NCBI GenBank assembly: GCA_963971425.1 | Contig: OZ020526.1 | Span: 434,001 to 498,000, forward strand | Direction of reading: 5' to 3' | Source: Bryoerythrophyllum caledonicum | Taxonomy: Eukaryota > Streptophyta > Bryopsida > Pottiales > Pottiaceae | DNA: 64,000 nucleotides | Shown: piece by piece, positions 1,390-26,642 of the stretch | Numbering within the stretch: the first letter of the stretch is position 1 | How the letters are laid out: every line of letters begins with the position of its first letter | Translations under genes and position numbers: made by a program | Notes under the pieces: model-generated | Database searches by the model: none | What the model was told of the DNA's origin: nothing | What the model saw: only the letters and a program-made list of their open reading frames with translations

Positions 1390-1734
1390 TGGGGTGTATT
1401 GACCACGTCGAACAAGTTGCCGTTAAGAAAAGAGCGGGAATGACATCACGTTTGGTGGGGAGGAGCTATTCTAAATAAAGCATCTTTCAAACTTGACCAA
1501 AAAATTAACAAGCACATAAGTTTCTCCTCATATCTCGATGTAATAGAAGTTTCTATTTACATGATCAATTTCAGGTTATCAATTGGGGTTATGGGTATCA
1601 ATTTAAATATGCAAGAATCAATTTAAATTTAAGGTATAGAATTATGTATCAATTTAAGGTTATCAATTGGGGTTATGGATATTTGAATACGGTCATTTAT
1701 TTCCATATTAAAGATATTGATTATGACTAGATTA

Positions 1735-2035
1735 TAAAAGTAAAGATTTAGGTTTAGGGTTCAAATTACATTTTGACATTTAGGGTTTAGGGTTTAAGGT
1801 TTAGGATTGCAAGTCCATGATATGAAGTGTAAATTATAGGGTTTAGGGTTTCGGACTAGACAATTCTAGAATTAGATTTATGGATTTGGGTTTAGGGTTT
1901 AGGTTCAAGGGTTTAGTTTTTAGGGTTTAAGGTCTTATAGTTTATTGTTTAGGTTTAATGATTTAAATATTAGGGTTCAGGGTTTTAGAGTTTAGTGTTT
2001 GGGGTTTAGGATTAGGGTTTAGATTAGCATCGAGA
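1735..2035. repeat. Degenerate TTTAGGG telomere-like repeats
   Basis: Many scattered copies of TTTAGGGTTTAGGG-like sequence are interspersed with variants such as TTTAAGG and TTCAGGG. This is the Arabidopsis-type plant telomere motif in interstitial, decayed form. It supports a green-plant source but does not by itself show a chromosome end. Confidence 0.7.
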
Positions 2036-2155
2036 TTACCACTGAATCAAAATGTCCTTTCTATAAGATTGTTTATCGTATCAAAATTGAATTGTGCCTT
2101 GGTATTGATTTAAGAAAATTCATTACATATCACCTAAAGATAAGATTTAAGAAGT

Positions 2156-3068: not shown

Positions 3069-4640
3069 TACTTCATCTCATTTGTTATGAATCAATATTT
3101 ACTCCTTTGAGTTGACTTTGCAAGATGATCTTGTCTCATGCGATATTGATTCACTTGCTATTATTAATTTATGTGTTTTATAATTCAAATCATCTTTGAC
3201 CCTAAAGGCCCAAGAGTTCCCTTGAAGGATTCTAAGAATTTAAGGAAGTTCCTATAGAGTCAATTTATAAGTTTTTTGGTGTCGGCTCTAATAGCACATC
3301 CGTATCCTTTGATCGCAACATTATGCAATTGTCGCCATTATGGACATAAGTTTGAGTGCCTTCAAAAATTTATGATCGCAATGTTTTTTAACGTCATTCA
3401 AACATATTGCAAGTTGATGTGTAACTTTGCGCACTTGCAAAAGTTTGGTTCCATCACTCTTCCCTTTATTGCAAACGGTACTACCTTATATATGCATTCT
3501 TTCACACAAAATTCATGCGTTACATATTATACATAAGTATTTTCTACTATCCTTTCTCCCACATGAATAAGGGTCAAAGATCACATGCAAATGTAAAAAC
3601 ATTTGTTTAAAAAACTAAAGTTCATTATCTTGTACAACTATACTCGTATCAATATTTTCCATTGAAAACCACTAGTACTTTGGTTGAAAAACAATGGTAG
3701 TCTAGTATCCTCTAAGGCCTCCCCTGTTTCAACCGTAGAGTGTTACACATGTTTACAAAATTAATTTGAGTATTAGATTTGAGTATTGAATTTTCCTTGA
3801 ATTTTATGGTATGATTTTTGGACTCCAGGGTCTGGTTTTGGGTGATTCCACGGAATGTGAGCAAGCTCCAAGGTTTGTTTTTTGTTCTGGACTCCAGTGC
3901 CTCATTTTCGTTTCTGACTCCAAGGAGGAAGCCCTCATCCTAGCACAATTTGAAGCAGTCGGGAGGACGGATATGGGATCACCCTGGGCGGGATCGGGTG
4001 TGCGCCGAGTATACGGGTGTGTGCCTTGGCGGGTATATTGCCGAAGAGGAAGGCGCAACACACATTTGGCACGGTCGATGCCTTCGATGGCGGTTTCAAC
4101 AGCAGGGACCTGTAGCAGTAGTCGGGTTGGCCAAGTCAGCCTTTCAAGGGATAAAGGTTGTCATGCCATCATCTTTGCAAATGATGAGTTGTAAACTTGG
4201 AGTAAAAAAGTTGTGAAGATGGAGTTGTGATCTTGGAGGTTGGCATACAAAGTTGGAGTTGCAAAATTGCATATTCGAGTTGTGGAGATTGAAATTACAA
4301 GTTTTGAGATTGTAATTGCAAATTGAGTTTGTGGATGTGTGAAATTGAGATTGTAATTAAAAGTTGAGTTTGTGGGTGTGTGAAATTTGCATTTGTGTGT
4401 TGCAATTTGTGCTTATCCAAAATAAATTTGAAACTCTTGATTACAAATGTGATGTTCATAACATTTTTGAAATTCCATGTTAAAATGCAAAAAATCTAAA
4501 ACCTAATTAATTTTTTTCTATTCTATTCTATTACATTATTAAAACTCGTGCATAGGTTTCAAAGATATATTTATATTTTATGTAGATTGTTGTTACTTTT
4601 TTTTTTAATATATTTTGTGATATAAAAACTACATTAAAAT
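3069..4640. other. AT-rich stretch without a supported gene
   Basis: Only short, low-quality frames occur. A frame of 127 codons at 3811-4194 lacks recognisable motifs and overlaps an equally long antisense frame. The part from 4250 to 4640 is a T/G-rich simple-sequence area leading into the Helitron-like terminus. Confidence 0.6.
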
Positions 4641-4652
4641 GGTTGAACTAAT

Positions 4653-4681
4653 GCGTTGCAAAGCAAGCGCCAACTGCTAGT
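4653..4681 (+). mobile_element. Helitron-like 3' terminus (CTAG|T)
   Basis: A hairpin-forming sequence, GCGTTGCAAAGCAAGCGC (TTGC/GCAA stem extended by GCG/CGC with one bulged base), is followed after six bases by CTAG and then T. A short hairpin a few bases upstream of CTRR, with insertion before a T, is the recognised 3' signature of Helitron rolling-circle transposons. The sequence upstream is AT-rich, as expected. The 5' TC end was not identified, so the element's length is unknown. Confidence 0.5.
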
Positions 4682-7600
4682 ATGTATTTGAAAATACAAT
4701 CTCATTATTGAAGTTTTGTTTCACAACAGATTAGGATTCTCAATCCATGAAAGATATTTGATAGTTTTCAAAATTAGATTTTTAATTTGAAGCCCCCTCA
4801 TCCAATCACTAGATTCCAATCTACTTAGATATTTATTTAAACTCACTATTTTATCCATGATATTGCCATTAGGCCAAAATCTATGCATGTCTTTTAAATA
4901 GAATTAATTGTTTTGAACATATAAAAACTTTGGAATTGTATTTTTGGTTTTTATATATGTGCTATCACAAAAAGAAGAAGATTAAATATTGCAACTCAAT
5001 TGTTTAATCATAAATCATCCAAAAACAAGAAATAAAAAAATATATATTGTATAATCCCAGTGTCTTTGATTTGCGTTCACTACAGGAAGTTTTTGAGTAT
5101 GATATATACAAGCCTATAGAGTAGGTGCAAAATGTATATAACACTAAAGGACCAGAGTCTCCTTCAGGGGGATTTATGATTTTGGGCAGGTTCCTAAAAC
5201 TCGAAAAAAAATCTTTTTTCTCTAAATTTTTTATTCCGGATTGCCTCTGATAGGAGCTTCGTAGGCATATTTTTATTTTATTTTTTGGATTTGTGTTTTG
5301 AAAGTTGGTACCACTTAAAGCCAAAAGTGGGAACACCGGGCACCTCCAATTTTTTTGACAAAAGTTTCTATTGACATTGAGATTTTTCACACATAAAGAA
5401 TATTTCCTTTTCTGGAAATTTTCAATAAAAAATCTTGTCTTTAGTGTAAAAAGGCATTTTATTCCAAGTCAAACATTTTCACACATTGTCGGGCAACGGG
5501 GGAAAAAAACTTCATCTTTTCTACATAAGACCTAGAGATCTTCAAATTTTTCACTTTTTATTTTTTCAACAACAATATGTGGTGAAAACCTTCTTATTGA
5601 CCGTTTTGATTATCATTTGAATACATACGTAGTACACAAAATAAAACGTGAAATGGCAATCATTGAACCTCCACTCCTTGCACACTTCTTTTGAATATGC
5701 TACACCCCTTTTCTACCTCTAAAAATTGGTGTGTTGGGAAATAACATCATGCTTAAGACAATGGTAAAAGATTTAGACCTTGTACAATGCAAAAATTTGA
5801 TAAAAAGTGAAGTCAAAGTCTGTTGATCTACTCAACGCAGGGAAGAAAATCAACCATTGTTTTGACTTTAAACACTAAAATCTATCAATCTGTACGGTGG
5901 ATTGCAACCAAAAGTTTAAGGCATGTTTATATGGAAGTTTTTTTAAGATCTTACGGTTGAAAATTCAAAATTCACTTTAAAATGTGATTTTCATGTCTCT
6001 TTTTGGCAGTGGCAGTTTTGGACTGGTTTTAGAGCGAAAGTGGTCGTGGTCCTTTAGGGGTTAATACATATATTCATTTAAAACGTAGAGGTTGGAGACC
6101 CTCTCTATTGATACAGTTGAAAATCAATTAACTGATTGTTGTTTAGCTTTTCATGAGGTTCTACAAAGACTTGACTTGTAGTGGAAATGGGCATGAAAGA
6201 AAATTCTAAATGAATGAAATAAGTGGGCCCCACTTTTTCATTTGTAGACTATCCAGACTTGAAAAGCTATGGTTTTGGGTGCATGACGGGTTTAGGTGTC
6301 GACCACAGAAAGTCTACCAACTGGCTCATCTCCACAACATGGATGAAAATCATCCAGAACCCATGCAACGATCAAACAGGAACCCGCGGATTAAATAAAT
6401 AAAGCATCTTATACCTAAAACCGTTACTGGACTCGATGCCGTCACTAACCCCTATCTTGTAGATTTGATTCCACCCGTTTCTACATTTTTACGGTTTTAG
6501 ACGCTGAGGTGTTTGGTGTATAAGCTCCCCCAAACTCTCCCTTCTCCGTGTGAGCGCCCGCATCTCGCGGAATGAAGCAATAGCAAGATAATTTCATTCA
6601 TCCAAGTAACGAGAACCTGTCGATGAATTAAAAAATGAACTAACACCCAAAACCCAAAACCATTTTTCGTAGACTCCCGGCCTCTCGATCTCTGTTCTAG
6701 GTACATGAAACATCCGTTTTTGAGGTCCCTGATGGGTTTGAGGCTTCGTCTTCACCGTGTAAGAGCAGACTTTTGGCTCGGAGTTTCCCAGCCTTCGCTC
6801 TGTTTTCGTGTCCCACACCGTTGCACTTGCTTATCATCGCACCGATCCTTCTTGTCTTCATCTTTTATCTAAAAAAGACATGTTACACTAGAAATTGAAT
6901 TTAGATAAGTATGCCCCATATTTGCCACCATCACAAAAAGAAGGATCATCCAACTAATCATATGGTATGAAATGCCATGGACGCACTTGCAAGGAGTGTA
7001 AATTTTCTACTCTTGAACAAGATACATTTGGTAGATTGAGGTGGATTTGTTGCAGTTCACGGGAAGATCAAAGAACCAAATCAAATGGACAAATTATGAA
7101 TTGAAATGAGAAATTTTAGGCTAAAATCCAAATTTTAGCTGCTTTGGTCTTCCCAAGATGAGATTTGTGTAAAACCCATATATTACAGTTTTAACTTAGT
7201 TGCATTTTGGAAGATAATGGATAAGGTAACCCCTTGTATCCAATGAGAACTCATAATCAACACCAATAAAATTAGGGTATATCCAACTGACTTCCATCCC
7301 ATTACCACCTATTTAGCTCCAAGTGAAGGTTAGGGACTCAAAAGAATCCCGTACTTTTTGCCGGCACTATTGGGGGTACCTATTAGCGGTCACCGGCTAA
7401 AAAAGGCAACACACTTTGAAAATTCACAAAGAATTTACATTTCATCGAAAAAGTATGAAATCACTTGGATTCAAATTGTAATTATATTGGCTATCACCGA
7501 AAATTAAATTAGGTAGAATTATTTCCTCCCTCCATATATGCACATTGCTTAACCCTATAAGACCGATGAGCTTTTTTAGCCTCCAAGAATCTAGGAGTGT

Positions 7601-7800
7601 TCTAAATCATGCAGAATAACATCAATACCACAAGGTACATAACATCAGAACCCCCACTTATGGAAATCATTGTCGCTGGTCTACGCTTGCACCGATATTT
7701 GCGGAGATTGTCTCAATAGAGCCCATCGTCCTCCACCTCTTTTTCATAGTTCAAGTCTTTAGCAGTTGCTATTGAGATTATGGAAAGAGGACCCGAAATG
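4682..7800. other. Unassigned AT-rich region
   Basis: No frame here carries a recognisable domain or credible codon pattern. Frames at 5004-5390 (minus) and 6210-6818 (both strands) are short and mutually overlapping. I see no RNA gene or clear transposon end. Confidence 0.55.
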
Positions 7801-8436
7801 GGCCATAACTTGTTGGTTATGAACGGGTGAGGGAACGATGGGAATCATTAGAACAGAGAAGGGAGCGATGCGAACAGCGAAGCAGGAAAAGTCGGCTATG
7901 AACAGGTGAGGGAACGGTGGGAATCATGAGAACAAAGAAGGGAGCGATGCGAACAAAGAAGGGAGCGATGCGATCAGCGAAGCAGGAAAAGGAAAGGAAC
8001 AAATTTGGGAACAGGCGAGGGAACAGTGCGAACGGCGGAGGGCAAGAGGCCGGAGGGAGACGAAGGGCGTCTCTTTTCATCTTCTTGCGTGCCCCGAATC
8101 AGGCCCGGACCTGGACGCCGAGCTTGAAGGAGCGTGGCGCGCAGTGCGGTGCTCAGGCGGTAGCGCTGCGGAGATCAGGCAGTGAAAGTGGGTTCCGAGG
8201 GCGACGACTTCTTTCGAGAGCGCGGTCGTCGTCTGTGCGGTGAGTGAGGGAGCTGGGCCGCGAGTGTTTCCAGGAGAGAGGGCAGTGCGGGGCGAGAGAC
8301 GGAAGAGCGTCTTGTGTTGTGTTGTTGCTGTGGGCGACGCCGAAGCGCAGGCGCACCACCGCGTAGCCTCAGATCCAACGCCGAAGCGCAGGCGCACCAC
8401 CGCATAGCCACAGATCCATCGCCGCACGCCATCATG
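7800..8436. other. GC-rich island with short tandem duplications
   Basis: Base composition jumps to GC-rich. Two imperfect copies of an approximately 90-bp block (around 7826-7896 and 7908-7993) share GGGAGCGATGCGAACA and GCGAAGCAGGAAAAG. A 41-bp unit containing CGAAGCGCAGGCGCACCACC is duplicated at about 8339-8420. The island ends with ATGAG directly followed by GTAAGC, a good donor site at 8436-8437. It could be the promoter and first exon of a gene whose later exons are scrambled downstream. That is inference. Confidence 0.4.
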
Positions 8437-8489
8437 AGGTAAGCCTACGCCGACAGGCCTGTGAGTTTGAAGTTTGAGGTATCGTGGGA

Positions 8490-8620
8490 TCGCTGGTTTC
8501 GTGGTTTTGGTTGATCGCTGGCTTAGGGTTGATCGCTGGTTTAGGTTGATCGCTGGTTTAGGTTGATTGCGTTGTGGAGGTTGAGGTTTAGGGTTTCGGC
8601 TTCAGAGAAGTTTTTAGGGT
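8490..8620. repeat. Short tandem repeats around GATCGCTGGTTTAGG
   Basis: GTTGATCGCTGGTTTAG and close variants occur about four times in tandem, leading into a TTTAGGG-like stretch. Nothing coding is supported. The following part, to about 9500, shows only weak frames. Confidence 0.6.
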
Positions 8621-9552
8621 TTGGGTGTCGTTGGTTGCAATTGGTGATGTTGGATTTGCCTGTAAGTTTTGAGAGTGTAGGTCATGAGCAATTCTGTGTT
8701 GAAGCCTTGGAACTTGTGGCGTTTTAAGCGTCGTTAATCAGTGTTGACGTGAATCAGTACACTGGAGTGGAGATAGGTTTTCTTCGGAGTGGTGATGGAG
8801 TGGAGGTTTTGTTGAAGTGAGCCGGTGCAGGATGTTTGTGAAGTGGTCGGGTTGGAGAGGTTGTTAAAGTTATTTGCGGCAGTGTTCGTTTCTGTATGGT
8901 TCCGCTGTGGGCATGGGCACGAGTTAAAAGCTGCTGAATTGGTTCCGTGTGGGATGAGCTGGGGTTGGTATGTGGTCTGAGGGTTCTGCAGAGGATATCT
9001 CTGTGGTGTGGTGAGGTGAGTGTGAAATTCGAGAGGTGAGGTTTGGAGGATGATCGGAATGCTTGGGTGCATGGCGCCGCAAGTCCCAGAATTGGAAGAG
9101 TAGACTCCGGACCCCGCCATCGCCAAGACTAATTTTTGTCGGATTGTGCTACAGTTCATCGTCTGGTGCTAATCGGAGAAGTGATCAGATCTCGGAATCC
9201 TAGTCCGATAAGCCCACAAGCAACAGCAGTTGGGAGGTTACTTACCTCTTACCTGAGTTGCTACAGTGCCGGAGAAGGACCGGACGTTAGTTCAGTCCTA
9301 CAGCGAGGTTGTTTTGTTTTGGTGTGGCCTGGGAGGGTGGGTGAGTGTGAATTTCGAGGAGGTCTAGATGGGTGGTTAGGCCGATCGAGTGTTGTATGTG
9401 TACTGAGTGTTGGGCGGTTGGATTTTGTTGCAGGAGCTCGAGTGTGGGAGGATATGATGAGATGTTTGGTGGGAGCGTTGTCGGGAATCAGTGGAAGCGA
9501 CGTGAATTATTTTGATTCTTTTGGAGGACTTCAAGCCCACCGAAATTGAGGT

Positions 9553-9594
9553 GTCCAGACTTCAAACCCGGCTGGACATTATTTTGGCTACAAG
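9553..9594 (+). pseudogene. Proteasome alpha-6 (PAA1-like) exon fragment, part 1
   Basis: A short frame reads VQTSNPAGHYFGYK and stops at a consensus donor (AAG|GTACGT at 9595). PAGHYFGYK matches the conserved DPAGHYFGYK segment of the 20S proteasome subunit alpha-6. Translation upstream is interrupted by an in-frame TGA. Directly upstream, in another frame, lies EDFKPTEIEV, which resembles the EDFKATEIEV segment that normally comes near the C-terminus of the same protein. The pieces are therefore out of order. Family assignment is from memory of the conserved sequence. Confidence 0.6.
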
Positions 9595-9812
9595 GTACGT
9601 GGACATTAGTTGCATGCCATGTCCAGATCCTCAGCTCTTAGAGTAGCCAATTGGAGGTCAACTGTACATTGCGATCAGGTGGTCGATGTTAGTTCCGGAC
9701 TCGTATGAAACATTACAGCACTATTTAATGAAGATAGATTGTAAATCTTGAGAGAGCTGGCTAGTCATGGTTGTAGTTACTTGTTTGCATGACTCGAATG
9801 CTCTTAATGCAG

Positions 9813-9908
9813 GCAACCAGCTCTAGTTCCAAGGACCAAGAGGCAGTGAATTTCGTCGAAAAGAAGATCAAGAATAATCTGCAACTCTCATACGAGCAAA
9901 CCGTTCAA
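9813..9908 (+). pseudogene. Proteasome alpha-6 (PAA1-like) exon fragment, part 2
   Basis: A 96-bp open exon is bounded by a TGCAG acceptor and a CAA|GTGAGT donor, both phase 0. It encodes ATSSSSKDQEAVNFVEKK followed by IKNNLQLSYEQTVQ, which matches the alpha-6 segment that follows GHYFGYK (ATSAG.KEQEAVNFLEKK...ETVQ). Parts 1 and 2 are in the right order, with an intron of 218 bp, so the copy was made at DNA level. The rest of the gene (N-terminal core and the ISALQSVLQ segment) is not found next to it. It is a fragment, not a working subunit. Confidence 0.75.
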
Positions 9909-9919
9909 GTGAGTCTCCG

Positions 9920-10305
9920 TGCTAGCTGCTTTGAATGTTCGAAATTGTTAATTTGCTGAGAACTTACTCGTGCTAGCTGCTTTGAATGTTCGAAATTGTT
10001 TGAAGGTTCAAAATTGTTTGGCCTCAATTTCAAAATTGTTTGAAATTGTTTGAAGGAGTCATCAGATAACCTGGATATGAACTGTTTGACCTCAATTTCG
10101 GTGGGCTTGAAGTCTGGACTCGTGCTAGCTGCTTTGAATGTTCGAAATTGTTTGAATGTTCGTAATTGTTTGAAGGTTCGAAATTGTTTGAAGGTTCGAA
10201 ATTGTTTGACCTCAATTTCAAAATTGTTTGAAATTGTTTGAAGGAGTCATCAGATAACCTGGATATGAACTGTTTGACCTCAATTTCGGTGGACTTGAAG
10301 TCTGG
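9920..10305. repeat. Duplicated block with inverted proteasome-derived pieces
   Basis: GCTAGCTGCTTTGAATGTTC and AAATTGTTTGAAGGTTC-type units repeat several times, and a block containing AGTCATCAGATAACCTGGAT is duplicated 188 bp apart. Each copy contains, on the minus strand, the sequence for DFKPTEIEV or DFKSTEIEV (10089-10114 and 10277-10302), an inverted copy of plus-strand 9527-9552. The area is a shuffled patchwork and carries no intact gene. Confidence 0.7.
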
Positions 10306-10603
10306 ACAGGTGCAATAGTGGTGATTACGAGTAGCAGCCACCTGTTGGACGATTGTGTGTTGAAGGAGGCGCTCATCAGTGGCACTGTCGTTGGCGTTGC
10401 CTTGGATGGCATTGAAGGGCCCCAGTGGCTCGAAGCTTGGGTACATGATCTTGTGCATGACTTCTCTCGTCTTTCTGTACTCAACTTGATTTTATGTTGC
10501 CGTTCTCCTTCCACGGGTGAGAGAGATGCCGAACGTGCTGATCCTTCTGTGCAGTGCAGACTACAGTGAAGAGGTCTCAGCCGAGATACGGTCAAATGCT
10601 TGA
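10306..10603 (+). pseudogene. ANGUSTIFOLIA / CtBP-like gene fragment
   Basis: From 10306 the frame reads TGAIVVITSSSHLLDDC and continues VLKEALISGTVVGVALDG, then IEGPQWLEAW, ending at 10440 before GTACAT. After a 76-bp gap, 10517-10603 reads VREMPNVLILLCSADYSEEV and then stops. This matches, in order, the plant ANGUSTIFOLIA (CtBP-family) segment LLDDCALKQLLIDGT..GCALDGAEGPQWMEAWV|REMPNVLILP.SADYSEEV. The gap behaves like an intron, but its 3' end is CGG rather than CAG. The NAD-binding core before it and the long C-terminal region after it are absent, so this is a captured or decayed fragment. Confidence 0.8.
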
Positions 10604-10925
10604 CTCCAGGAAGAAGTTGCATTCAGAGTTATACGGGTTCACCTTGGGATGAAATCCTTGTGATGTTGTAATTTTTTGTAAGTTGGGAGTTGGTAGGTTT
10701 TTAAGTTGAAGAGTTTCGGCCACTTATCTTAGTTTTGAGTTTCTAATAGTGATTGGATTACGATTCAAAGAGGGGACATTTTGTCACTGAAGCAGCTCCT
10801 TTGTGTGACATACCTCAAGCCATTTGTTTGAAGATTCAAGAGGTTGCAAAAAAAATGGAAATGAGGTAGGTAGACTCCTATGGAACTTGCAATTTGAATG
10901 AATTTTGTAATTTTTCATTCATATA
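10604..10925. other. Spacer without a supported gene
   Basis: No coding frame or repeat of note. It lies between the ANGUSTIFOLIA fragment and the palindrome cluster and could hold the promoter or leader exon of the ParB-like gene. Confidence 0.4.
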
Positions 10926-10929
10926 ATTA

Positions 10930-11653
10930 GTGCATATTCAGCTCAAGTCGAGCTGAATATGCACAATTGGTTGATCACGAGGTGCATATTTAGCTTGGGT
11001 AGAGCTGAATGTGCACGTGCAATTTTGAATGATGTGCATATTCAGCTCGACTCGAGCTGAATATGCACAATTGGTTGATCACGAGGTGCATATTTAGCTT
11101 GGGTAGAACTGAATGTGCACGTGCAATTTTGAATGATGTGCATATTCAGCTCGACTCGAGCTGAATGTGTAGAGTATGATGAGCTTTGTGTGCACATTCA
11201 GCTCGACTCGAGCTGAATATGCACTTCCGGCTCATTAGTATGAGCACAAATGATTGATCGTAATGTGTACATTCAGCTAGAGAGAAGCTGAATGTGCATC
11301 TTGATTTCAGCTATGAATGCATATTCAGCTCGACTCGAGCTGAATATGCACAGTCTAATGAGCTTTCTGTGTACATTCAACTTGACTCATAATGAATATA
11401 CACGTTCAGTTCACTAGTTCATGGGCGTTACATTAATATTTATCAGCACATTCAGCTTGACAAGAGCTTAATGTGCACGGTAAAACATTTGTGTGCACAT
11501 TTAGCTCAAGTAAAGCTAAATGTGCAATAGAAATGATAAAAAACTTCAAACAATTGCAAGTGGTAATACAAGATTTGAAACTTCTTGATGGAACTACACC
11601 TATGCAATTAAGTGTCGTATTGCATATTCAGCTCGACTCGAGCTAAATATGCA
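10930..11653. repeat. Cluster of about twelve palindromic units
   Basis: Units lie at about 10930-10964, 10982-11016, 11034-11068, 11086-11120, 11138-11170, 11190-11224, 11265-11299, 11318-11350, 11370-11404, 11447-11479, 11494-11525 and 11621-11653. The best ones have a 16-bp arm TGCATATTCAGCTCGA, one central C, and the exact complement of the arm. Others carry mismatches in both arms, some compensated (CATTCAGCT with AGCTGAATG, or CATTTAGCT with AGCTAAATG). About 10930-11030 and 11034-11134 are a direct duplication holding two units each. The cluster ends about 80 bp upstream of the ParB-like gene's start codon. Confidence 0.92.
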
Positions 11654-11732
11654 AAGTTAAGAAAAAATTGTAATACATTCAGTACGTATAATAAAATCTG
11701 AATTCACTTACGGACTCCATTGCAGAAATCCA

Positions 11733-14700
11733 ATGAACGACCAAGAAGTCCTGGATCAATACTATAAACCAATAAGTATTGCGATCGAGTCCGACGACGG
11801 AGAGGAGCACGAGTTACTCAACTGCTACGAGCTTCGAGATCCAGAGAGGCATGAGGCGTGGGGGTTCGAACATATCGGTCACTCTAACAGCTTGGTGTTG
11901 ACTCACAAATTTCGAGGCATGGATATGTTCTTGCACGTTTCACCGAATGAGAAGATAATCGAGTTTGACCACCACAAGAAGTTCCTCGTGGTTAAAAGTG
12001 AGACGACAAGTGAAAGTAGTCTTCAGTACACGGTTCTCATCGACTGCATGACTCAAGTCTTCAGCCTTGATCCCTTTCTCGACAGTATTGAGAACTCATT
12101 ATTTGAGTCAATAAAGAAGGACATCCTCAAACAGCAGGACGAAGATTACTGGAAGAGCAGCATTGGCGGGCCTCTTCGCGCTAAAGCTTTGTCGTCAAAG
12201 TTGACAAGTCTCCTTCATGCAATGGCAATGAAGGTTCTTCAAAACTCGCAGACCTCATCCGAGATGACTCCGGTGAAGGTCTCTCGTAGGACCGAGAGTG
12301 GCAATGTCAGCCAAGGCGATAACACTGGACAAAAAACTGCAGCGGCTCGAACTGGCAAGGTTAATCCGAGGAAGTCGTTGTCTACAAATCCAACGCCACC
12401 AAAGAGGCAGCGTCGATCACTTGCTCCGGAGGCTTCAACTCGAAGAGCACTAAAATCTAGTGCAAAAAACCAAGAAGTTGGTAAGCCAGACGTTGAGGCC
12501 AGCATCGTCTCTGCGATCACCGATTTGCCCCACGAGTTGCGTCCTGGAGAAGCCATTGACTACGGAAATGCATCCGAAGTGTACGAAAAGTTCTGGACAG
12601 ATTGCCAGGACTGCTTCCTCTACGACCCTGACATGAAGAAGGAGTTGGATGTGCGGCAGTTATCACCAGCACCAGAGGACTGGACAATTCGGGCCTTTGA
12701 GAAGAAGGGCATGGACGTGGTAATGAATTACCTCATAAACATGCCCGATAAATCCATCAAGCAGACGCTTTGCGTGATGCCGATAACAAACGAGAAGCCT
12801 GATGGAAACTGGGAAGACATTCGAAAGGGGAAGTTCTACATCATAAGTGGCCAACATAGCGTGGCGGCAAGCTTAGCGATGATGGCGGATGAATCTATTG
12901 ACGAGACCACAGTGAGACACTTTCGCGTATGGAAGTGCTTTGTCGTATGGTCCGATGACAAAGAGAAGCTGCGTAAGATCTCGGCATTCTACAACCGAGT
13001 CAATCACTTGTCCGTCTTCAAGCCAACGTGGTCGACCAACATCCTATCTGCACGGTCGACATGGACTAATCTAGGTCGCCCAACACCACCACAGAAGAAG
13101 AATACCCCGGGTGGCCGTGGAGCTCCAAGAGTCAACGACAAGGCGTATAAGGTTAGCAATCCTGATTACGATTGCATATTCAGCTCGACTCGAGCTGAAT
13201 ATGCAAACCTTGGCGAATGCATATTCAGCTCGACTCGAGCTGAATATGCACACCCATGTCAACAATTGTTCTGTATTACTAAGATTATTGTTATGCCTCC
13301 TGCAGGAGTTCATTGAGGCCATTCAACGTCGGTTTGCCTGCATTGACGTTGCAAAGAACCAGCAGTATGCTAGTAAATCTAGTCAGGTTCCTCAGCTGAC
13401 TCTCTCAAATGAGGTCAAGATTATCACGTCGCCTGATTCTACTTTCAATCTCTGGCGAGATGTGATGGCCGCAAGCGCTCAAGGCGACTTGATTGACGTT
13501 GACACCAACCCCTTGCGCAAATTCAAAGACAACCTGAAGTCGACGCCAGCGAAGGATGGTGGTCTGAATCGAGAGTTCTTCAAGTGGCTCAATGGCCTCA
13601 CTGATGCAGATCATGTGAAGTTGTTGAACCACATTTTGAACCGCAGCGGACCAAAACGGCGACTGCAGTATCCGAAGGTGGTCATCAAGACACCAACCAG
13701 TGTATTGGATAGTAATTACACGGCTTTGGAATGGATCGAGCGGCGCAAGAGGAAGAACGTCGTCCGTAGGGAGTTGCAGAAACTAAAGCCTAGTCTTGCA
13801 TTTTTTGATGCAAACAAGAATTTTGTTCCTGGAAACTGGAAGCGTTTTAAGCGTGAATATCACGTCTCATCCGCAACCATGAGGGTGCTTGTCGATCAAC
13901 CCGGTGAGGCATTTTTCACTGAGGCGCGACAGCTTCGGAGCAAGAACAAGTCTGCGGAGGAGCTATCGCCGTACGCAAAAGCTTGGTTTAAGTTGTTCTT
14001 AGACAAGCGCCAATATTTTGAAGAAGCGTCCGGGTCTGCATACATCCGAAAGTACAACATCATCAATGATACGTTGGGTGTGTGGCCCGAAAACACATGG
14101 GATCCCCGCGGCGAAAAGCCTCGGCTTGGATTGATCGATTTCAGATCAGCTCCCGGGCAAGATTTAAAGCCAACATCAACGGTGGCTAACCCATTCTTCA
14201 AGGACTTCATGGAGGCATTGCGGACTGGAGGCAGCCCTGGACTGACAGACCCAGATGTCTGGCTATGGATTTGTGGGACCAAGACAGAGGAGAGGCAAAT
14301 CTTCTCCATAACCGAGAAATCCCCATTTGTGGACGAATACGTGACATATAGTTCCGCATACATTCCTGGTAAGTATGAGCGGCTCGATGATCTGTCGAAA
14401 GGCAACAAGTTGTCAAAAGATTCTGTGGAACTTCTTTGGCTAGTCCGTAAGCAGTTAGCTCGCTCTAACTTAGTTACAAAGGAGTATGTCTATCCGCTTC
14501 ATGTTGCAAACACCAAGGTCCGCAAGTACAACGAGTTGGAGTATCGTGTAAACACTACTGAGTTCACGATGGAGTTCTACTTTCAAGTACTCAAAGAATG
14601 GTGCAAACCCGGGGACTTAGTCTTCTCTGCCTTTGGAGGCTCAAAGTTTCTTATTGCATCTATGGTAAGAATTTCTGCCGAGCTCTCCTGTTTGCATATT

Positions 14701-15938
14701 CAGCTTGACTCGAGCTGAATATGCAAGTGCTTCTCGATCATTAGTTCTGAGTTGCATATTCAGCTCGAGTCGAGCTGAATATGCAAGTAGTGTAGTTTCA
14801 TAGAATGCAATTATATGTCGCTTGAGTTAGTTTGATTGATTGCTAGTGTCTCTGGTGTGCCTTGCAGATCGAATCTCTAGAGTGTGCCTGCATCTGCGAG
14901 ACTTCTGAGAGTGATCGGTACGAAAGCAAGGCCAAGTTGGCTTTGTCTCTATGCAAAGCGGATTTCGTTGCCGACGGTTATCCAGTTGACGAGACAAAGT
15001 ACCCTATTAAGCCCCCTCGTGGTAAGGGTAAGGGAAAGAGACGAGTTGATGACGACGATGATAATGAGGAAGATGATGATGAGCAACCTACTGTGGATGT
15101 TACGAGCTCAGATGTTGCGGTAGCTGAACCATCAGACCCCGCTTCTGCTCGCGTTAATGAAGGCGCAGATATTGAAGCATATTGTGCGAATGATTATGAG
15201 GATCTTGCTCTTCGTCGGTCCAGTGTAATTGCAGGTGGTGCTGGTCCATCCAACAATCGGTCGCAGAGTAAGGCTGATTCCTCAGATGGAAATACTGACG
15301 ATGACATTGAAGTGATGGCTTCTGCGCCAACGCCCCCCCACAAGCGCCAACGAACTCCTGTGACGGTTAACTCGCCCGCGCTATCGACGTCCCCTCCCAC
15401 TGCACAAGCTGATATGTCATTGAAGGTCGAGATGCTCTTAAAGAAGGTCGAGGAGCAAGAGAGGCTCAACCAAGAGTTGTCAAGACGGCAGGAAGAGCGC
15501 CAAGATGAGCTCCTTGCAGCGCAGAGAGCCGAGATGGAGCGGAACACGCAAACGATGATCGCTTCTATGTTTGCAAGGTTCGAACAGATGTTGCCACCGC
15601 AGTCCAAGCCGATAGAGCATATTTTAGGTGCAACTCCTGAGGCGGCTGCAAGACCATCGTCTCAAGGCCCTACTGTTATAGAGACGATCTCCTCGTTTAA
15701 AGAGGCGTATGTCCAACAGTCTTTGTTGACATCGGATCCGAAGACGTCTTCTCCTCTTTCACCGCCACAAGCAATAGCCTATGTTGGAGCCGAGCGCATG
15801 GTTTCCGCCGATCCCAGTGTTCAGCCAATCAATGTGATCCCGGTGAAAGAGACTGAAGTTGCTAATGAAGTCAATACACCGAGCAACACTCAAGCATCTC
15901 CAGGACACTCTTCAGGTGGAATTCTCGATGAGAACTAG
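11733..15938 (+). CDS. ParB-like / decayed DNA methyltransferase fusion protein
   Basis: Exons are 11733-13151, 13306-14664 and 14868-15938, all joined in phase 0 with GT-AG borders, giving 1282 residues. The start ATG lies seven bases after a TGCAG acceptor, so a noncoding leader exon probably exists upstream. Residues 1-160 are unrecognised, and 160-270 are basic and low in complexity. Residues 275-473 look like a ParB/sulfiredoxin-fold domain: IISGQHSVAAS at 370-380 occupies the place of the ParB G-x-x-R/H box, followed by FYNRVNH. The second exon reads like a beta-class N6/N4 DNA methyltransferase: LGLIDFRSAPG (747-757) sits where DPPY is expected, and GDLVFSAFGGSKFLIASM (909-926) where the D-PF-GSGTT SAM-binding loop is expected. 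The DPPY motif is lost, so methylation activity is doubtful. The third exon is acidic, then forms a coiled coil (about 15420-15600). ParB-methylase fusions are known from phages and bacteria; a spliced plant version is unusual. The last exon may instead splice onward (see the FCP1-like entry). Confidence 0.7.
13173..13250. repeat. Two perfect palindromes inside intron 1
   Basis: Units at 13173-13205 and 13218-13250 each consist of TGCATATTCAGCTCGA, a central C, and the exact complement. They make up nearly half of the 154-bp intron 13152-13305. One frame through each unit is open (CIFSSTRAEYA), which is why the flanking exons seem to run on into the intron. Confidence 0.93.
14693..14785. repeat. 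Two palindromes inside intron 2
   Basis: Units at 14693-14725 (one arm mismatch) and 14753-14785 lie in the 203-bp intron 14665-14867, the intron that interrupts the SAM-binding loop of the methyltransferase-like domain. Confidence 0.92.
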
Positions 15939-16245
15939 TATATCGAGTATTCTTGTTGTTGTTAATCATGTTTTCCTAATTATTTTCGTACATTAAGTTA
16001 TGTTTGTAAATAATCTTGGATGTTTATTGTCCTTTTAAACCTTGGTTGAGTAAATTCGATGTTGTTTCCATTTCGAATCTCCTTAATCACTTCTCTTCGT
16101 TGTATGATGTTTTCGTCTTGATCCATTTATTTTTTCTTTATAGACTACACTTAAGTTGAATTAAATGTACTGCAGATAAATAGTAGTATATCTCTCTCTG
16201 TTTTTTTCCGTTCAGTCCTTCTCCTTAAGTCATTGTTACTTCTAT

Positions 16246-16278
16246 TGCATATTCAGCTCGACTCGAGCTGAATATGCA
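16246..16278. repeat. Perfect palindrome between exon 3 and the FCP1-like exons
   Basis: A perfect 33-bp unit of the same family. A weaker relative (GTTAGAGTCGAGCTGAATG) follows at about 16388-16411. Both lie in the proposed 574-bp intron 15916-16489. Confidence 0.9.
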
Positions 16279-16489
16279 TTACTTTCTGTATATCATGTTG
16301 TTCTCCCTCTGTGTACATCATATTGAAATTCAAGTTGTCCTCTCCCTTGTGCATCCAATTGTTGAGTACTCATACACTGGCACAATCAGTTAGAGTCGAG
16401 CTGAATGTTAATCTTCTTTAGTATCAAGTGGCGTTGCATTTTTGAGGCATGCTTGTTCATAACCTGTAATCAAATTTGCTGAATTTCAG

Positions 16490-17544
16490 ATGCCCTAAGC
16501 CTCGAAGTCGATTTCATAAAAGATGATGCTGGCTCTTCTCAGCATCCTCCTATGGTTGGTGCAAAGCCCATTGATGCTACTTTGGCCATCAACTCACAGG
16601 TATAACCTTAATCTCACCACTTCATGGCCAAAAAGATTGTGCTGTCTTTTGCAGTGCTTCCTTCTTTGTATAATATTATGTGCTCTATTGTTATATGATG
16701 TTTAATGTTTAGTAACATGTACCTCCACTCTTTCCCATCTGAATTCCAGGTGGTCGAGCCTCTGGAGAGCGTTCATAGCGCTGTAGTCCGTGTTCCTTGT
16801 TCAACCCCTAGAGTGGTCAAACCGTGGTTAAACATTGTGTTTGACTTGAACGGTATATTGTGTGTGTGCGAGGAATTCCGCTTGAGGTCTGCTACGCAAG
16901 CCTTCAATGCATGTTCTCTACCACACTCGGTAAAAGTTCCAGCCAAGGTCGGCCCAAAGCTAGTGTATGTTCGTCCAGGCTGCAAGGCATTTTTGGACGC
17001 TGTTTCCAAGTTTGCATCGATATCGGTCTGGAGTTCGATGAAATTGAACACCACTAGTAGCATCGTCAATTACCTCTTCCCAAAAGCGGCCTCACCAAAA
17101 GTCATATTTGGGCAAGAGCATTGTAGGAGAGTCGTAACTGCTGTGATCCATAATGTACCTCAATATCTGAAAGTTAAGAACTCAGATAAGGAGGTATTTC
17201 TGAAGACGTTGTCGAAAGTCCTATTTACTGAAAAGGGTGTCTCCTTTACGAAGGAGAATACCATCATCATAGATGACAGTCCGTACAAGCACGTCCTTAA
17301 TGATCCGGAGAATGTTCTTCTTGCGGATACCTGGTCCTACAAAGAGGATGGATGGAACGATAAGTTCCTTCTAAATGTCTTGCTTCCATGGCTCCAAAAG
17401 CTCCACAGTAGTGCAGAGTTAGGGCTGCAATCTTTTCGGCGTGGGAATCCCTTTGGTCGTCCAACAATTTGCTCGGATCCATATAGCTTAGAGTACATGG
17501 AATTAACGCACGCGATTATGATATCTGATGGGCTCTCAAATTAG
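16490..17544 (+). CDS. FCP1/NIF-like HAD phosphatase domain, probably 3' part of the ParB-like gene
   Basis: Exons 16490-16599 and 16750-17544 join in phase 0. The second exon encodes an FCP1/NLI-interacting-factor-like HAD domain: motif I FDLNGIL (about 16840), motif II SVWSSM, a Lys-rich segment, and motif IV IIIDDSPYKHVLND (about 17265). The nucleophile Asp of motif I is kept, but the second Asp of DxD is Asn, so catalysis may be weak; plant relatives with DLNG/DVNG are known. The first exon is open upstream to its CAG acceptor and needs one base from a preceding exon. A CAG|GTGG donor at 15915/15916 in the ParB-like gene supplies exactly that phase (G+AT=Asp), giving a 1576-residue protein. 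If the domain stands alone, ATG 16552 gives 280 residues. The joined model is inference. Confidence 0.65.
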
Positions 17545-17840
17545 AAGTTCTCTGGTATCAATCATAAATGTGTTGATGTATTATACTATACATATCTTAT
17601 AAGTCAAGTGGCAGTTGCCAGTTCTTTGATATTTGTTTGTAATTTTCCGTTTGTAAATTGTTGGATTTGTAAGTTTTTGTTTTCTCTTTGCTTCCATGTT
17701 TGAAAAAGAGCCATTAATCATTTTCTCATGTAAACTGTTGTATTGCCACCGTGGATTCTGTTTTGAAGTCAGAAGATTGTGGATATCGAATTCAACGTAA
17801 ACATAATGATTTGTACTCCCGCGGAGCAGCTGATTATTCG

Positions 17841-18796
17841 ATGGACTCTTCGATGGCTCCAGTTGAAGAAGATGAAGTCAACAGCCCCCCACCTAAAATT
17901 TGCATTCGAAAGGTTGCCTCCCGTTCTATTCTTCAACCTCGTCAAATTTTGGGGTCCCCCGGTGTTGATGGGATTTGTGGGAAAGGTGACCAAGTGCTTG
18001 TTCCCGGACGTGAGGAATCATTGTCTCTTCCCCCGCATAGCATGGTATTCCCCCCCTCCCCTTCTCTGTATTTGTCCTAGGTCTTTTTTGGCAATGTGCA
18101 CATTCAGCTCGAATAGAGCTAAATGTGCACAAGTTTCATTTTAACTCTCTTTGTCCCTACGTCGTAGGATCACGCACTTCAAACTCTTGCTGGTGTAATT
18201 CAACCACCTACGACGGTGCCATCAGAGAAAATGCCCTCAATTCCTACTACGTGTTGGCCTGTTGCAACGGTCGGAAATGATGAGAACAAGCTCCAATCTC
18301 TAAGTGGGAAAACGCATTCTAATATTGAGGTTGGTCTTATTTTTTGTTATTGTTTAGTATGTGTTGTATCTTCAGTTGAATACTCATCACTGTTTTGATT
18401 TTGCATGTTTCACGAACACCTAAATTGGACATAATTATTTGAATGGATTCCACATCATGGTGTTTGTGTTTTTTTGACATGTGTGGCTACATATTCAGCT
18501 TGGTTTAAGCTGATTTTTGTGGTCTCTTTTGCTAGGTGCTTCAACCGACTATTGAGCGTCAAAGTGCTTCCCCAAAGCATGGTTTAAACCAAAACTCAAA
18601 GCGTCACTCTCGCCGTCGCCACTCACTTCCTGTGCCTATTGTTACTTGGAACCAACGAATGCAACGCCAACGACTGCAAGAACATATACGGGCTAGTCAA
18701 ATGCCATATACCGGTTACAGCCGCAAAGATGAACTTCAGAGGGGTAGAGATGAGCTGAGGAAATCTAATTCTGGTGACGTGGAGAAGAACAAGTAG
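17841..18796 (+). CDS. Unknown basic protein with palindromes in its introns
   Basis: Three exons, 17841-18044, 18168-18329 and 18536-18796, join in phase 0 and encode 208 residues. I do not recognise the protein. The C-terminal exon is rich in Arg, His and Gln (SKRHSRRRHSLPV, then NQRMQRQRLQEHI), which suggests nucleic-acid binding or a nuclear signal. The start is the first ATG in the open frame; the frame is open back to 17718, so an unseen upstream exon is possible. It follows the FCP1-like part by about 300 bp on the same strand. Both introns contain members of the palindrome family. Confidence 0.5.
18096..18130. repeat. Palindrome in intron of the unknown basic gene
   Basis: GTGCACATTCAGCTCGA pairs with AGAGCTAAATGTGCAC, with two mismatched positions near the centre. 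It lies in intron 18045-18167. A strongly decayed relative (CATATTCAGCTTGG, then AAGCTGA) lies at about 18490-18515 in the next intron. Confidence 0.85.
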
Positions 18797-18818
18797 ATTT
18801 ATGATCTGAGTGGTACAA

Positions 18819-18853
18819 GTGCACATTCAGCTTGGCTATACCAGAATGTGCAT
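18819..18853. repeat. Palindrome downstream of the unknown basic gene
   Basis: GTGCACATTCAGCTTGG and CCAGAATGTGCAT form an imperfect unit about 25 bp after the stop codon. It is the last member of the family seen in the window. Confidence 0.8.
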
Positions 18854-19152
18854 TGACTAGGAATTAATGTGTATGTTTTTGGTCGTAGTAGAAGCCTTTT
18901 TTTGCATGGAAAGGATGATGCATGTTTTGTATATGGATTACTTCTATCATATAATAAATATAGTCTGCAATTAAAGATATTATTTCATTTGATTCTCCAA
19001 TTTGGGTACTGTTTGCCCATACATCTTCATATTATCTTACAAAAATGGTGTTGTACTTCTATTCTAATCATATTTTGCTTCATCACTACGGTAAAATATT
19101 TGGATTACTCAAGAGCGTGTACCTCCTAAATCCCTGGAAATCTCCCAATATA

Positions 19153-19482
19153 ATGAATATGGTGTTTTGTGCTTATTGTGGTTTAGGATTTGTGTGGAAA
19201 GCCGCGGTTTTGTCATCTTGTGGTTGCTTCTTGCATGCTCCAAGCGTGGCGGAACTGATGGCAGGTCAAGATTATAAGTGCAAGAGGTGCAAGGACCCTC
19301 ACCATGCTTCATCACCGAATCATCTCACAGGCCCGTGGGTGGCACAATTTGGGGGACTGATGGAGCCACACCACCATACCAATTGTACTATCTTCTCGAG
19401 CGTATTACGAGCCGCCGACAAGGATGACAACACTCTAGTGAATGACAAAGAGCCTGCAGCTGATTGTGATTCGGCGATTTAG
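19153..19482 (+). CDS. Small zinc-finger-like protein
   Basis: A 109-residue frame starts MNMVFCAYCG. Cysteines and histidines are spaced as CAYC, then CGCFLH, then CKRC, and PHH: two Cys pairs plus a Cys-x-Cys-x3-His cluster, which resembles a RING-like or treble-clef zinc fold without matching a standard RING spacing. The tail is acidic. An upstream in-frame ATG at 19045 would add 36 hydrophobic residues and is less likely. It is co-directional with the ParB-like locus and about 350 bp beyond its last palindrome. The function is unknown; a protein or nucleic-acid contact role fits the fold type. Confidence 0.45.
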   Translation: MNMVFCAYCGLGFVWKAAVLSSCGCFLHAPSVAELMAGQDYKCKRCKDPHHASSPNHLTGPWVAQFGGLMEPHHHTNCTIFSSVLRAADKDDNTLVNDKEPAADCDSAI

Positions 19483-22780: not shown

Positions 22781-25700
22781 TGTTGCAGTTTGTAGAGTAA
22801 GTAGTCCTCCGGATAGCAATTAGTTGAAGCTAAATGTGCCCGGCATGGTCGCTCTAAATTCGTTCCCACAGAGATCTATTGTTTCTTCTTGGAATGCTAA
22901 GTAAGCTATTTGCTATCCCTCTACCACACGCCAGTTAGTATTCCTATTTTACGCCTGACCTTTTTATCCGGATCCTTTCGGACGTCCAATGTAGTTTCCT
23001 ACTATTTTCCGGGTCCTGCCAACTTCCGGAAGGTCAGATGGAGTTTGTCTTCTGGAGTTTTTAAACGAGTGGCCGGGTACCATTGATCCTATTTTGTGTA
23101 AGTGGCCGGATTCCCCACTGCCTTGTGACTTTAAGTGGCTAGGCACCCACTCTCCCTAGGTTGCTAATTGGTCGTTGGTTTGTTGTTTCCGGATGCACTC
23201 TCTTACATTATCCGGAAGGCCTTCCGGATACGGTCACTCAGAGGCTCACCCGGGCTACAACGACATTCTGGAAAATGATTAGTGGTTCGGTGACGTGTGA
23301 AGGGTAGATCTGCATTTGGACTTCCTTCTAGACATACACCACAGGCTTTTCCATCTATCGTAAGGGGAAATTCCGGTCGCAACCAGAATCCGGGTTCACA
23401 CGGAATCTCCGTGCCCTAGGAGCTACCAGGCCACCACCTAAAGTACCCTCCCTCCCCCTCCAGGCTTCTTCCGGTCACCAAGGATCGTCAGACTCTATCT
23501 AACCTCTCCTTTAGCTGTTCCGGGCGCTCTCCCACAGCAAGTCCCAACCGGTTAGACTAGATGCTTATCCGTGAACCACTTCAGCTTCCACAACTATTCC
23601 ACTAATCATCAACCAGAATGGGCCCTATCCTTCATTCACAAAATGATACATGCCACCAGAATTTCAATACAAGAAAATATACTAACAGCAAATATCATTC
23701 CTGAGGAAAAGAAAAAAAGGCCCTTAGCCGGCCACAACTCTTGCGTTAAGAGCCCGCTACCACTGAGCTAAAATCGAAACTAAGAAGCTAAAAATCCGGG
23801 AAATCCTATCCTAAAAGTGAAAGGGATATTATCCCTAGAAATCCGGAATTCAAACTTAGATCCGAAAGTTTCGAACCTGAGATACGGTTTCTACGGATCT
23901 AACTCAAAAAAGGAAAACTGTCTTTAGTCTTACCGTATGATAGCCGGGTGCAAGCTTGAGCCCCATCGTTAATCGCTTATCAGACCTTTTAGAACTAAAG
24001 ATTCTAATCTACGGGGTTACTTGGTTCGGCCTCCGACTGCTACGGCGTGAAGGGGTAACTTCTGCTGGAGCGGCGCCGACCTCGGTTTGCGCCGGAATGG
24101 CTGCTGGTGGTTCCGGTGAGGTGGTCGGCGTCGGCATACCTGGTCCGGATGGTGCATCCGGGTCCCCTGTTGTAACCGCCTGGCCGGATGGTGCATCGGC
24201 CCGGTCTTCAATGTCCGGAAGGTCCCGGAAGCTACCGCTGGGGCTGACCACCATGGGTGTCGCTGTCGAGCTTCCGGGTAAAGGATCCGTCACTGGTGGC
24301 CCCGGAGAGGGAGACTCGGAGGAAATTCGGAAGGGCAAGGGTGGTACTACTTGACTCCTTGGCACCTGTTCCCACTTCTGAATACTCTCCGTGCTTGGGA
24401 AGGCCACCCCATTCCAACTCATAGGAGAGCTGAAGTCCGGCGTTCCCACGAGGTCATTGAATTGTCCGGTGAGTGACTTCGCTGTTCCAGATGCAGGTCT
24501 GGGTGAAGAGCCGGCCGGAGGTTGAGAAGGAGAAACAGCTGCCGGACCGGATGGGGATCCGGACGGGCCGGCAGTGGTTTCAGACGGATGTGCCTGGGTT
24601 CCGGATGGTCCCACAGCATCTGAAGCAGGAGGTGCCGGAACTGGAGGGGGAGCTCCTGGTACTGTTGAGGTGGCCGCGACGAGCTCCCTCGCTAGCTCCT
24701 GCATCTTGGACCAAGTGCCCTCCATTTTCCGGCTGTGATCTACCAAGAACCGGATAACCTGCCCCCTGCTGAGCTTCTCGTTCTTCTCCAAGCTCGCCGT
24801 GTAGAGTAATGCCCGGTTAACCGTATCCACCGAAAAATCCAGTGCCGTGAGAATATCGGTCAGTGACTGTGACGCCGCCCGGACCTTCATTTCTGCCACC
24901 ACTCGGGCATGCTGTGCTGCATCCCGTGCGGCTTCCGCCTGCCGGACCTGACTCCAGAGCCGGGTGTTAACCTTGGTTATGGTGGCGTTCTCCTGCTCCA
25001 GTCTTGTGACGGAATCGTGCTTCTCCTTCATCTCTCTGAGCTGGGCGATGAGGTGAGTGGTGTCCTCCAGTCCGACTGCCTCTAAGATGGCCATTATCAT
25101 GGCATGCCTCTCCCGGATCTCCCCCTCCTGGATCCTGGTCCTCCAAACAATATGTCTGCACAGCTCGTGGACATCCACGGGAATGTCGCCAATGATGCTT
25201 GGGACAAACGTCGGTCCCGGCTCTGATCCGGTCGCGAATCGTTCGTCTTCTGGGGCCGGTTCCGGTGCTGCAGGCTGTGCTGTGGTTGGTGGTGCTATGG
25301 GTGGGCTCTGCGCCGGGATTGTTGACAACGGCCGGCATTCTCCCGGGGTCTCCGGAGTCCTCTGCACCGAACGACTACGCTTCCGGTTCGGTCTTCGAAG
25401 TATAAGGGGGGATGACGACTTCTCCGTGTCAGAGTGCGTCGATTCATCCAGTTCCTCATCTGTTTCCATCCCTCCGTATGACTGGATGGTGAGCAAGCTG
25501 TCGTACTCGGCCTGCTCGTCCGGACTCAACATCTTCTGCTTGGCATACATGTGAGCCAGGTAGGTGGAAAGCGGGGATGGGGTTTTCCGGGCTTTCGGCA
25601 GGTTCTTCACCATCCGGTCAATCTGCTCGTCCATGATGGCTGCCCAGTCGACAGACAACTTCCCTCTCATCGAGCCTAAGATTAGGGTTGCTAGCTTGGC

Positions 25701-26631: not shown

Positions 26632-26642
26632 TTACCCCTTTT

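Follow-up and report, generated by a model that had tools for sequence, protein, structure and literature searches.

A ParB-like gene of a moss lies amid a family of short palindromes, and the question raised by this locus is whether these palindromes are sites of a protein encoded there, the terminal signature of a mobile unit, or something else. A sequence-only reading of the window, i.e., the whole stretch of 64,000 nucleotides that was analysed, had proposed the first two possibilities, and its claims were followed up by analysis of element copies, relatives, arm symmetry, and encoded proteins.

Results

Palindromes and gene models in the window

About 20 copies of a 31-35-bp palindrome, many of them with perfect 16-bp arms and a one-base centre, had been claimed, and 21 copies could indeed be aligned between 10930 and 18853, six of which (11051, 11334, 13189, 13234, 14769, and 16262) are paired at all 16 arm positions. 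The palindromes are beyond chance, since a degenerate 31-mer gave 34 two-strand matches compared with 0.00 in 100 dinucleotide shuffles. The array reported near the left edge of the window was also recovered, and it is probably located within the leader of the minus-strand DUF7869 gene that lies outside the window to its left. The rest of the window had been described as free of copies, and no palindromic copy was found anywhere in 19166-64000; the search of this part returned a resemblance to the core with 3 mismatches at 38318, the arms of which do not pair. The palindrome alignment comprised 40 copies, with omission of array copy 125-159 (identical to another copy) and of two non-pairing rows (L015:6883 and window:38318), and it revealed decay of the palindromes at 18504, 18836, and in several array copies.

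Gene models were built on splice consensus and homology (Table 1). The copies assigned by the sequence-only reading to a leader are present, but their location is probably the first intron (intron 0) of the ParB-like/FCP1 gene. Similarly, palindromes do occur in what had been taken for a separate interval before the FCP1 exons, but this interval is most likely intron 3 of the same gene, because the frame is preserved by canonical splicing and both parts occur within a single chain in several Ceratodon proteins; the part with the predicted ParB/sulfiredoxin fold and the FCP1-like part most likely form one protein. Introns 1 and 2 of the ParB-like gene contain palindromes as claimed, as do the introns and downstream flank of the next gene, although the two decayed copies named above are among the latter. 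This third reading unit yielded no domain in a Pfam search, and its exon order is the same in the relative L015.

Table 1. Features of the moss element and of the genes modelled in it (window coordinates)
Feature	Position	Strand	Remarks
Mobile element, 22.8 kb	-3588 (C15:430412) to 19166; in-window part 1-19166	+	delimited by inverted ends and a second copy
Palindrome array, four copies head-to-tail, period 34	59-192	-	upstream of DUF7869 gene
Probable coding exon 0, 11 nt	10855-10865	+	ATGGAAATGAG then GTAGGT; length and phase match exon 0 in relative L016
Probable intron 0	10866-11725	+	12 of 21 palindrome copies; 52/104-bp period over 10930-11224
Exon 1 (counted from its ATG)	11733-13151	+	weakly FERM-F3-like part and predicted ParB/sulfiredoxin fold
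Intron 1	13152-13305	+	palindromes centred at 13189, 13234
Exon 2	13306-14664	+	conserved region, fold not assigned
Intron 2	14665-14867	+	palindromes centred at 14709, 14769
Exon 3	14868-15915	+	acidic and coiled-coil-like; unspliced reading stops at ~15938
Intron 3 (most likely)	15916-16489	+	palindromes centred at 16262, 16395
Exon 4	16490-16599	+	
Exon 5	16750-17544	+	FCP1/NIF-like domain (PF03031, E 5.2e-19)
Third reading unit	17841-18796	+	exons 17841-18044, 18168-18329, 18536-18796; one palindrome per intron (18113, 18504)
Decayed palindrome	18819-18853	+	~0.3 kb from right end of element
Right terminal inverted repeat	19138-19166	-	identical to left repeat (L043:2412) over 28-29 bp

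The palindromes are carried by a DNA transposon

The moss palindromes are part of a cut-and-paste DNA transposon that is present in multiple copies and was active recently. A second copy of the element, 99.3-99.9% identical, has different flanks, and the terminal inverted repeats of the window copy (AACACC...GGTGTT) are perfect over 29 bp. A 28-mer of the terminal repeat was found at 396+402 exact genomic places, compared with 0 for the reversed-pattern control. Of the 11 MITEs, 10 are flanked by 4-bp target duplications, as are 7 of the 9 long pairs (17 of 20 end pairs in all); the window copy and one 7.5-kb pair lack such a duplication. Exon 2 has at least 94 genomic matches, and at least 17 genomic copies, including that in the window, are 99-100% identical in this exon. 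The interpretation given in the sequence-only reading is partly supported.

The element carries two divergent genes, one for the ParB-like/FCP1 protein and one, on the minus strand and outside the window to the left, for a DUF7869 protein (PF25273, E 2.1e-43). The latter gene is linked to the element and multi-copy, and its product is inferred to be a putative transposase; a literature search for DUF7869 together with transposon gave no match. Both genes have palindromes in their introns and flanks; the exons of the main gene are palindrome-free in 12 copies. In the window element, 18 of 24 sites lie within or behind the ParB-like/FCP1 gene, many of them intronic and several kb from either end. 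Tandem palindrome arrays have periods of 34, 45, and 52/104 bp, and the copy number in introns 0 and 1 varies between element copies. A viral origin was considered and rejected, as neither the palindrome pattern nor relatives occurred in viral contigs (0 each); phage records gave no DNA match, and the 16-bp arm was found at 14 places.

Palindromes in element copies, MITEs, and relatives

The long form of the palindrome occurs at 231 genomic places, a count that excludes variants. All 20 fetched palindrome regions, which are the first 20 of 29 groups among the places listed and were chosen by the exact long form, hold cassette exons or a piece thereof, and five of the nine remaining groups have an exon-2 match within approximately 3 kb. 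The MITEs had been expected to lack the palindrome, which proved wrong: each of the 11 fetched contains one, with the exact core in nine, and they include natural MITEs of 163 bp that hold one site each. Retention of one palindrome per MITE could reflect inheritance, as the MITEs examined represent two types only.

Introns 1 and 2 also hold palindromes in L015 and L016, copies probably of another moss. Moreover, in read-through tails of metagenome ORFs (19+19, cut by rule from 85 proteins), palindrome signatures, which were defined after inspection of the tails, occurred in 15 of 19 intron-1 tails (shuffled 0.0) and 15 of 19 intron-2 tails (shuffled 0.025); P0022, P0036, and probably P0059 and P0063 share a MAG with L015 and L016 and are not independent of them. 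In a subfamily that is 45% identical, the one locus read (L070) has a symmetrically changed palindrome, with T/A at 8 of 8 sites found, at a position that is mostly C/G in the class of the window (105 of 153).

Arm changes are compensated: 35 two-sided cells were counted versus 16.2 in shuffled alignments, none of 500 shuffles being as high. Two of five covariation measures were weak, namely the pairs with two-sided change (8 versus 5.7; 33 of 500 shuffles as high) and the further types (25 versus 20.6; 13 of 500 as high). Among 153 distinct sites at 20 loci, G-U mismatches (125 cells) hardly exceed A-C mismatches (111 cells), which suggests that the symmetry acts as DNA rather than RNA. The corresponding counts are 22 and 9 in the window's own copies, and 3 and 7 in L015 and L016.

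The ParB-like/FCP1 protein

Structure prediction assigned a ParB N-terminal (ParB/sulfiredoxin) fold to residues 301-428 of exon 1 of this transposon protein, and residues 33-169 are weakly FERM-F3-like. ParB sequence profiles gave no match in Pfam, PHROGs, or NCBIfam, and a PDB search by sequence returned neither a ParB nor another convincing match, and none at all for the DUF7869 ORF. The ParB family has an arginine-bearing CTP motif, at which the window protein reads GQHSVAAS and P0001 has GQHR. The FCP1-like domain may be inactive, as its motif is DLNG compared with the usual form DxD. Judging from dN/dS values of 0.13-0.26 for exon 1 (against six related copies) and 0.18-0.27 for exon 5, the protein is under purifying selection. 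A methyltransferase-like motif suspected in exons 2-3 found no support in Pfam, PHROGs, or NCBIfam, and arginine methyltransferases appeared among the matches only at E 1.1-1.3.

Discussion

The best explanation of the palindromes, about as likely as not in our judgement, is that they are address tags that keep the element expressed or accessible. A dimeric element-encoded protein would recognise the symmetric core AGCTCGA-N-TCGAGCT, the many sites would concentrate this protein on the element's own non-coding DNA, and the bound protein would maintain the transcription or accessibility of the element, and hence its mobility, despite host silencing. The likeliest candidate for this role would be the ParB-like/FCP1 protein, which is the product of the accessory gene, is under purifying selection, and has most sites in the introns of its gene; we infer that it may bind the palindromes. 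Against this reading, a ParB-type fold alone does not bind sites, as bacterial ParB reads parS through a separate HTH domain. The more specific version, in which the ParB-fold protein loads on parS-like palindromes in introns and MITEs, spreads or recruits by way of its remaining parts, and shields the family from silencing, while protein and palindrome co-diversify per subfamily, is possible but rather doubtful.

The palindromes might instead act in cis as sites of the putative DUF7869 transposase or of a transposition complex, serving mobility and not expression, as do the subterminal repeats of En/Spm. The palindrome in each of the gene-less MITEs and the sites no more than approximately 1 kb from the left end or 0.3 kb from the right fit such a role, which is nevertheless unlikely given the concentration of sites within or behind the other gene and far from the ends. 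Use of the palindromes by a host DNA-binding protein, as enhancers or silencing targets with the element as mere carrier, is more improbable still: dimeric host factors typically recognise symmetric DNA sites with a conserved core, and the core here contains CpG, but the symmetric shift of the site between subfamilies within one genome (seen at one locus, L070) is not what a single host factor would predict, and all regions fetched, though selected by the exact long form, are element copies or pieces.

Two further explanations appear very improbable. RNA hairpins in introns or leaders, with roles in splicing, small RNAs, or RNA binding, would agree with the presumed intronic sites, the first of which follow the 5' splice site by 21 bp (intron 1) and 28 bp (intron 2), and with the G-U excess in the window's own copies; this excess nearly vanishes over the 153 sites and is reversed in L015 and L016, the one-base centre would need opening, and MITEs carry sites too. 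Functionless spread of a satellite or foldback repeat within the element would account for the tandem arrays and the copy-number differences, but relatives that are ~45-57% identical in protein share introns and core, and arm changes are compensated.

Among known systems, the proposed mode of action would be that of VANC, which binds its motif and removes methylation, on VANDAL elements, exerted by a different protein. In the accounts cited, VANDAL is a MuDR-type element (PMC12730594), the VANC21 motif has 9 bases, YAGTATTAY (PMC5735166; PMC10398659), and introns of VANC21 and VANB21, as well as the region upstream of VANA21, contain VANC motifs (PMC5735166). As far as these accounts go, both systems share an element-specific short motif with many copies and tandem repeats that differs by family and is found in accessory-gene introns and upstream of the actual or putative transposase gene; the moss element likewise concentrates its motif in its own introns and upstream regions. 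The VANC21 motif as given there is not palindromic, whereas the moss site is, and the genes of the moss element encode a DUF7869 protein and a ParB-fold/FCP1 protein.

En/Spm has subterminal short sites for element-encoded TnpA, two proteins, and defective derivatives. The moss element resembles it in its numerous short sites, candidate element-encoded regulator, two proteins, and defective derivatives, but its sites are mostly intronic, and termini and transposase differ. Bacterial ParB-parS shares the predicted fold and a palindromic site, whereas the moss case is a eukaryotic transposon with a fused FCP1-like domain and a nucleotide motif altered relative to the usual form of the family, and a parS-binding domain was not identified in the moss protein, the fold being predicted for the exon 1 part. 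Lanisha originates from the moss Ceratodon. It is, in the source cited, a DNA transposon lineage from a Repbase report (PMC12730594), and by this description the 4-bp duplication of the moss element falls inside the 2-5-bp range of its group; the CACTA-like (CMCT) clade including Lanisha has CA...TG termini in most members (PMC12730594), in contrast to the AACACC...GGTGTT ends found here. Transposases of this clade share C(2)C and H(3-4)H motifs. DndB, as described in PMC4507180, is a bacterial phosphorothioation regulator with a G-Q-H motif, and it binds palindromes located at the gene that encodes it; its function and its site, TACG-N10-CGTA, set it apart.

The moss system would be easy to test because of its at least 17 near-identical copies and its natural single-site MITEs. 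Element-specific anti-silencing via short address motifs has been documented in the Arabidopsis VANDAL group (PMC5735166). If the address-tag reading is true, the moss element would represent a second, unrelated address-motif system of independent origin, built on a palindromic site and a ParB-fold/FCP1 protein. It would also be unusual in that a ParB-type fold would act on palindromes in a eukaryotic nucleus.

Association of the palindromes with a mobile element

The palindromes noticed in the sequence-only reading were recovered in place by scanning and alignment of the window, the best copies reading TGCATATTCAGCTCGA-N-TCGAGCTGAATATGCA, and neither shuffled window sequence nor the same scan of the reversed window gave any match. 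A genome-wide scan (437 Mb, 894 contigs) gave 231 exact matches to the palindrome and none to its reversed control. All 20 palindrome regions fetched from contig C1 (the first 20 of 29 groups among the places listed, two being a single copy divided by an insert) bear the ParB-like cassette, although L035 retains just intron 3 and a fragment of the FCP1 part.

The alternative proposal of one mobile unit is supported in part: the palindromes belong to an element with inverted ends and duplications, and sit in introns, flanks and MITEs. Copies share a sharp right end, past which they part immediately, and its inverted counterpart lies left of the window. A C1 copy is 99.3-99.9% identical to the window element end to end, with different flanks. 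The end 28-mer is found at 396+402 places in the genome, and facing pairs among the C1 places listed comprise 20 of 162-163 or 236-237 bp and seven of 18-34 kb. Duplications of four bases border all but one of the 11 MITEs fetched and seven of nine long end pairs checked, being absent at the window copy and one 7.5-kb pair. Exon 2 has at least 94 genomic matches; 17 of them, counting the window copy, show 99-100% identity over the full exon without a stop. It follows that the element moved recently.

The DUF7869 gene (domain match at E 2.1e-43; putative transposase), on the minus strand between the left end and the window, has 148 relatives, including in Ceratodon and Physcomitrium, and palindromes also lie behind it. 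Four loci (L030, L033, L034, L036) represent a recurrent defective derivative that has lost the ParB exons and in which the DUF7869-gene region is inverted beside the FCP1 part.

Features of the window and of the element's left end
Feature	Position	Remarks
Palindrome array	59-192	Upstream of DUF7869 gene
Canonical donor and acceptor	15916, 16489	Predicted splicing joins the window gene in frame to the FCP1-like exons
FCP1-like motif	16843-16854	DLNG
Right end of element	19166	
Left end of element	C15:430412	
Gypsy-type retrotransposon sequence	22821-36342, 46039-58014	Between long direct repeats resembling LTRs
Perfect palindrome	23209, 32919	TATCCGGAAGGCCTTCCGGATA; in the Gypsy-type sequence
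Long ORF	40504-42168	P-loop-like GIGKS motif; resembles Crinkler-type proteins; weak Pfam ATPase rows only
Long ORF	59715-61250	P-loop-like GIGKS motif; resembles Crinkler-type proteins; no Pfam rows
Tandem repeat, 42/85-bp	63681-63866	TGGAGTTATCCCCGAGCC...

The ParB-like/FCP1 gene

The closest proteins are from mosses (P0001 of Ceratodon purpureus, P0002 of Physcomitrium patens), and a profile search widened the relatives to 85, among them Ceratodon copies named UG, VG or by autosome number; several Ceratodon proteins join the ParB-like part to PF03031. By our reading of these locus names, many copies (P0001, P0004-P0010, P0013) lie on the Ceratodon U and V sex chromosomes. In place of the DxD-type motif of FCP1-like phosphatases, the window gene has DLNG, as do P0001 and P0003 of Ceratodon, so phosphatase activity may be absent.

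Exon 1 dN/dS was 0.13-0.26 between the window and six copies (L023, L027, L029, L032, L037, L038) and 0.20-0.40 against L025, L031, L039 and L040, the near-identical L024 having too few changes for an estimate. Values were 0.21-0.49 for exon 2 and 0.32-0.82 for exon 3 (copies with enough changes), and 0.18-0.27 for FCP1 (six copies). The ParB-fold and FCP1 exons are under the strongest constraint; several copies contain stops.

Placement of the palindromes

Scored by intron in 12 copies, introns 0-3 bear palindromes wherever covered, and exons 1-3 and FCP1 have none; L032 is without intron 2, L037 has none in introns 3-4, and L015 stops short of intron 0. All eight of the 235 site-like places in 20 C1 regions that fall within tblastn stretches are third-unit matches, whose length shows bridging of that unit's first intron. 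Read-through tails of metagenome ORFs carry the signature in 15 of 19 cases for intron 1 and likewise for intron 2, and lack it in four of 19 for each. L015 and L016 bear this core in the corresponding introns, and in L016 an 11-nt coding exon 0 can be read ahead of a palindrome-bearing intron, a layout matched by the window. The array read earlier as leader sequence is real, and its location is accordingly most likely intron 0. L015 and L016, with a plant-type transposon, are filed under AVDCRST_MAG81, a cyanobacterial MAG of a public species collection, and are probably moss contamination.

Each of the 11 MITEs fetched has one palindrome (eight of 163 bp, three of 237 bp), with one or two core changes in L055 and L056. 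In the 163-bp MITEs, identity is 0.964 for the palindrome, 0.985 for its left neighbour and 0.952 for the right part; being no more conserved than the former and about equal to the latter, the palindrome in these young MITEs alone gives no sign of constraint. End identity is uninformative, the MITEs having been fetched by exact ends. Divergent copies were compared by one locus each. L070, from a set of 12 copies at 45-46% identity, carries T/A at both places flanking AGCTCGA-N-TCGAGCT in all eight sites found, in the same introns; L071 and L072 (51-57%) mostly keep C/G.

Symmetry and proposed function

Arm changes are compensated, as the sequence-only reading had asked: among 40 copies (39 distinct), 35 cells changed on both sides vs 16.2 after shuffling (0/500 as high). 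Paired arm cells reached 85.1% vs 80.8 (0/500), pairs with two-sided change numbered eight vs 5.7 (33/500), and slid controls paired at 19-40%. Kinship among copies raises counts of this kind. The mismatches bear on whether the symmetry belongs to DNA or RNA. Across 153 distinct sites from 20 loci, G-U (125) and A-C (111) are near parity, as symmetry of DNA would predict; the ratios in the 40-copy set (25 vs 16) and in window copies alone (22 vs 9) lean against it.

Intron placement, presence in gene-less MITEs, DNA symmetry and the change seen in a divergent subfamily make the palindromes resemble target sites for a dimer that the element itself encodes. The closest working model is VANC, whose tandem motifs, in VANC21 and VANB21 introns and upstream of VANA21, are bound by the element's own protein, and methylation is lost (PMC5735166, PMC10398659). 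DndB offers a precedent for a G-Q-H protein binding palindromes located at the gene that encodes it (PMC4507180). We infer that the ParB-like/FCP1 protein would be the binder, and anti-silencing of the element its purpose.
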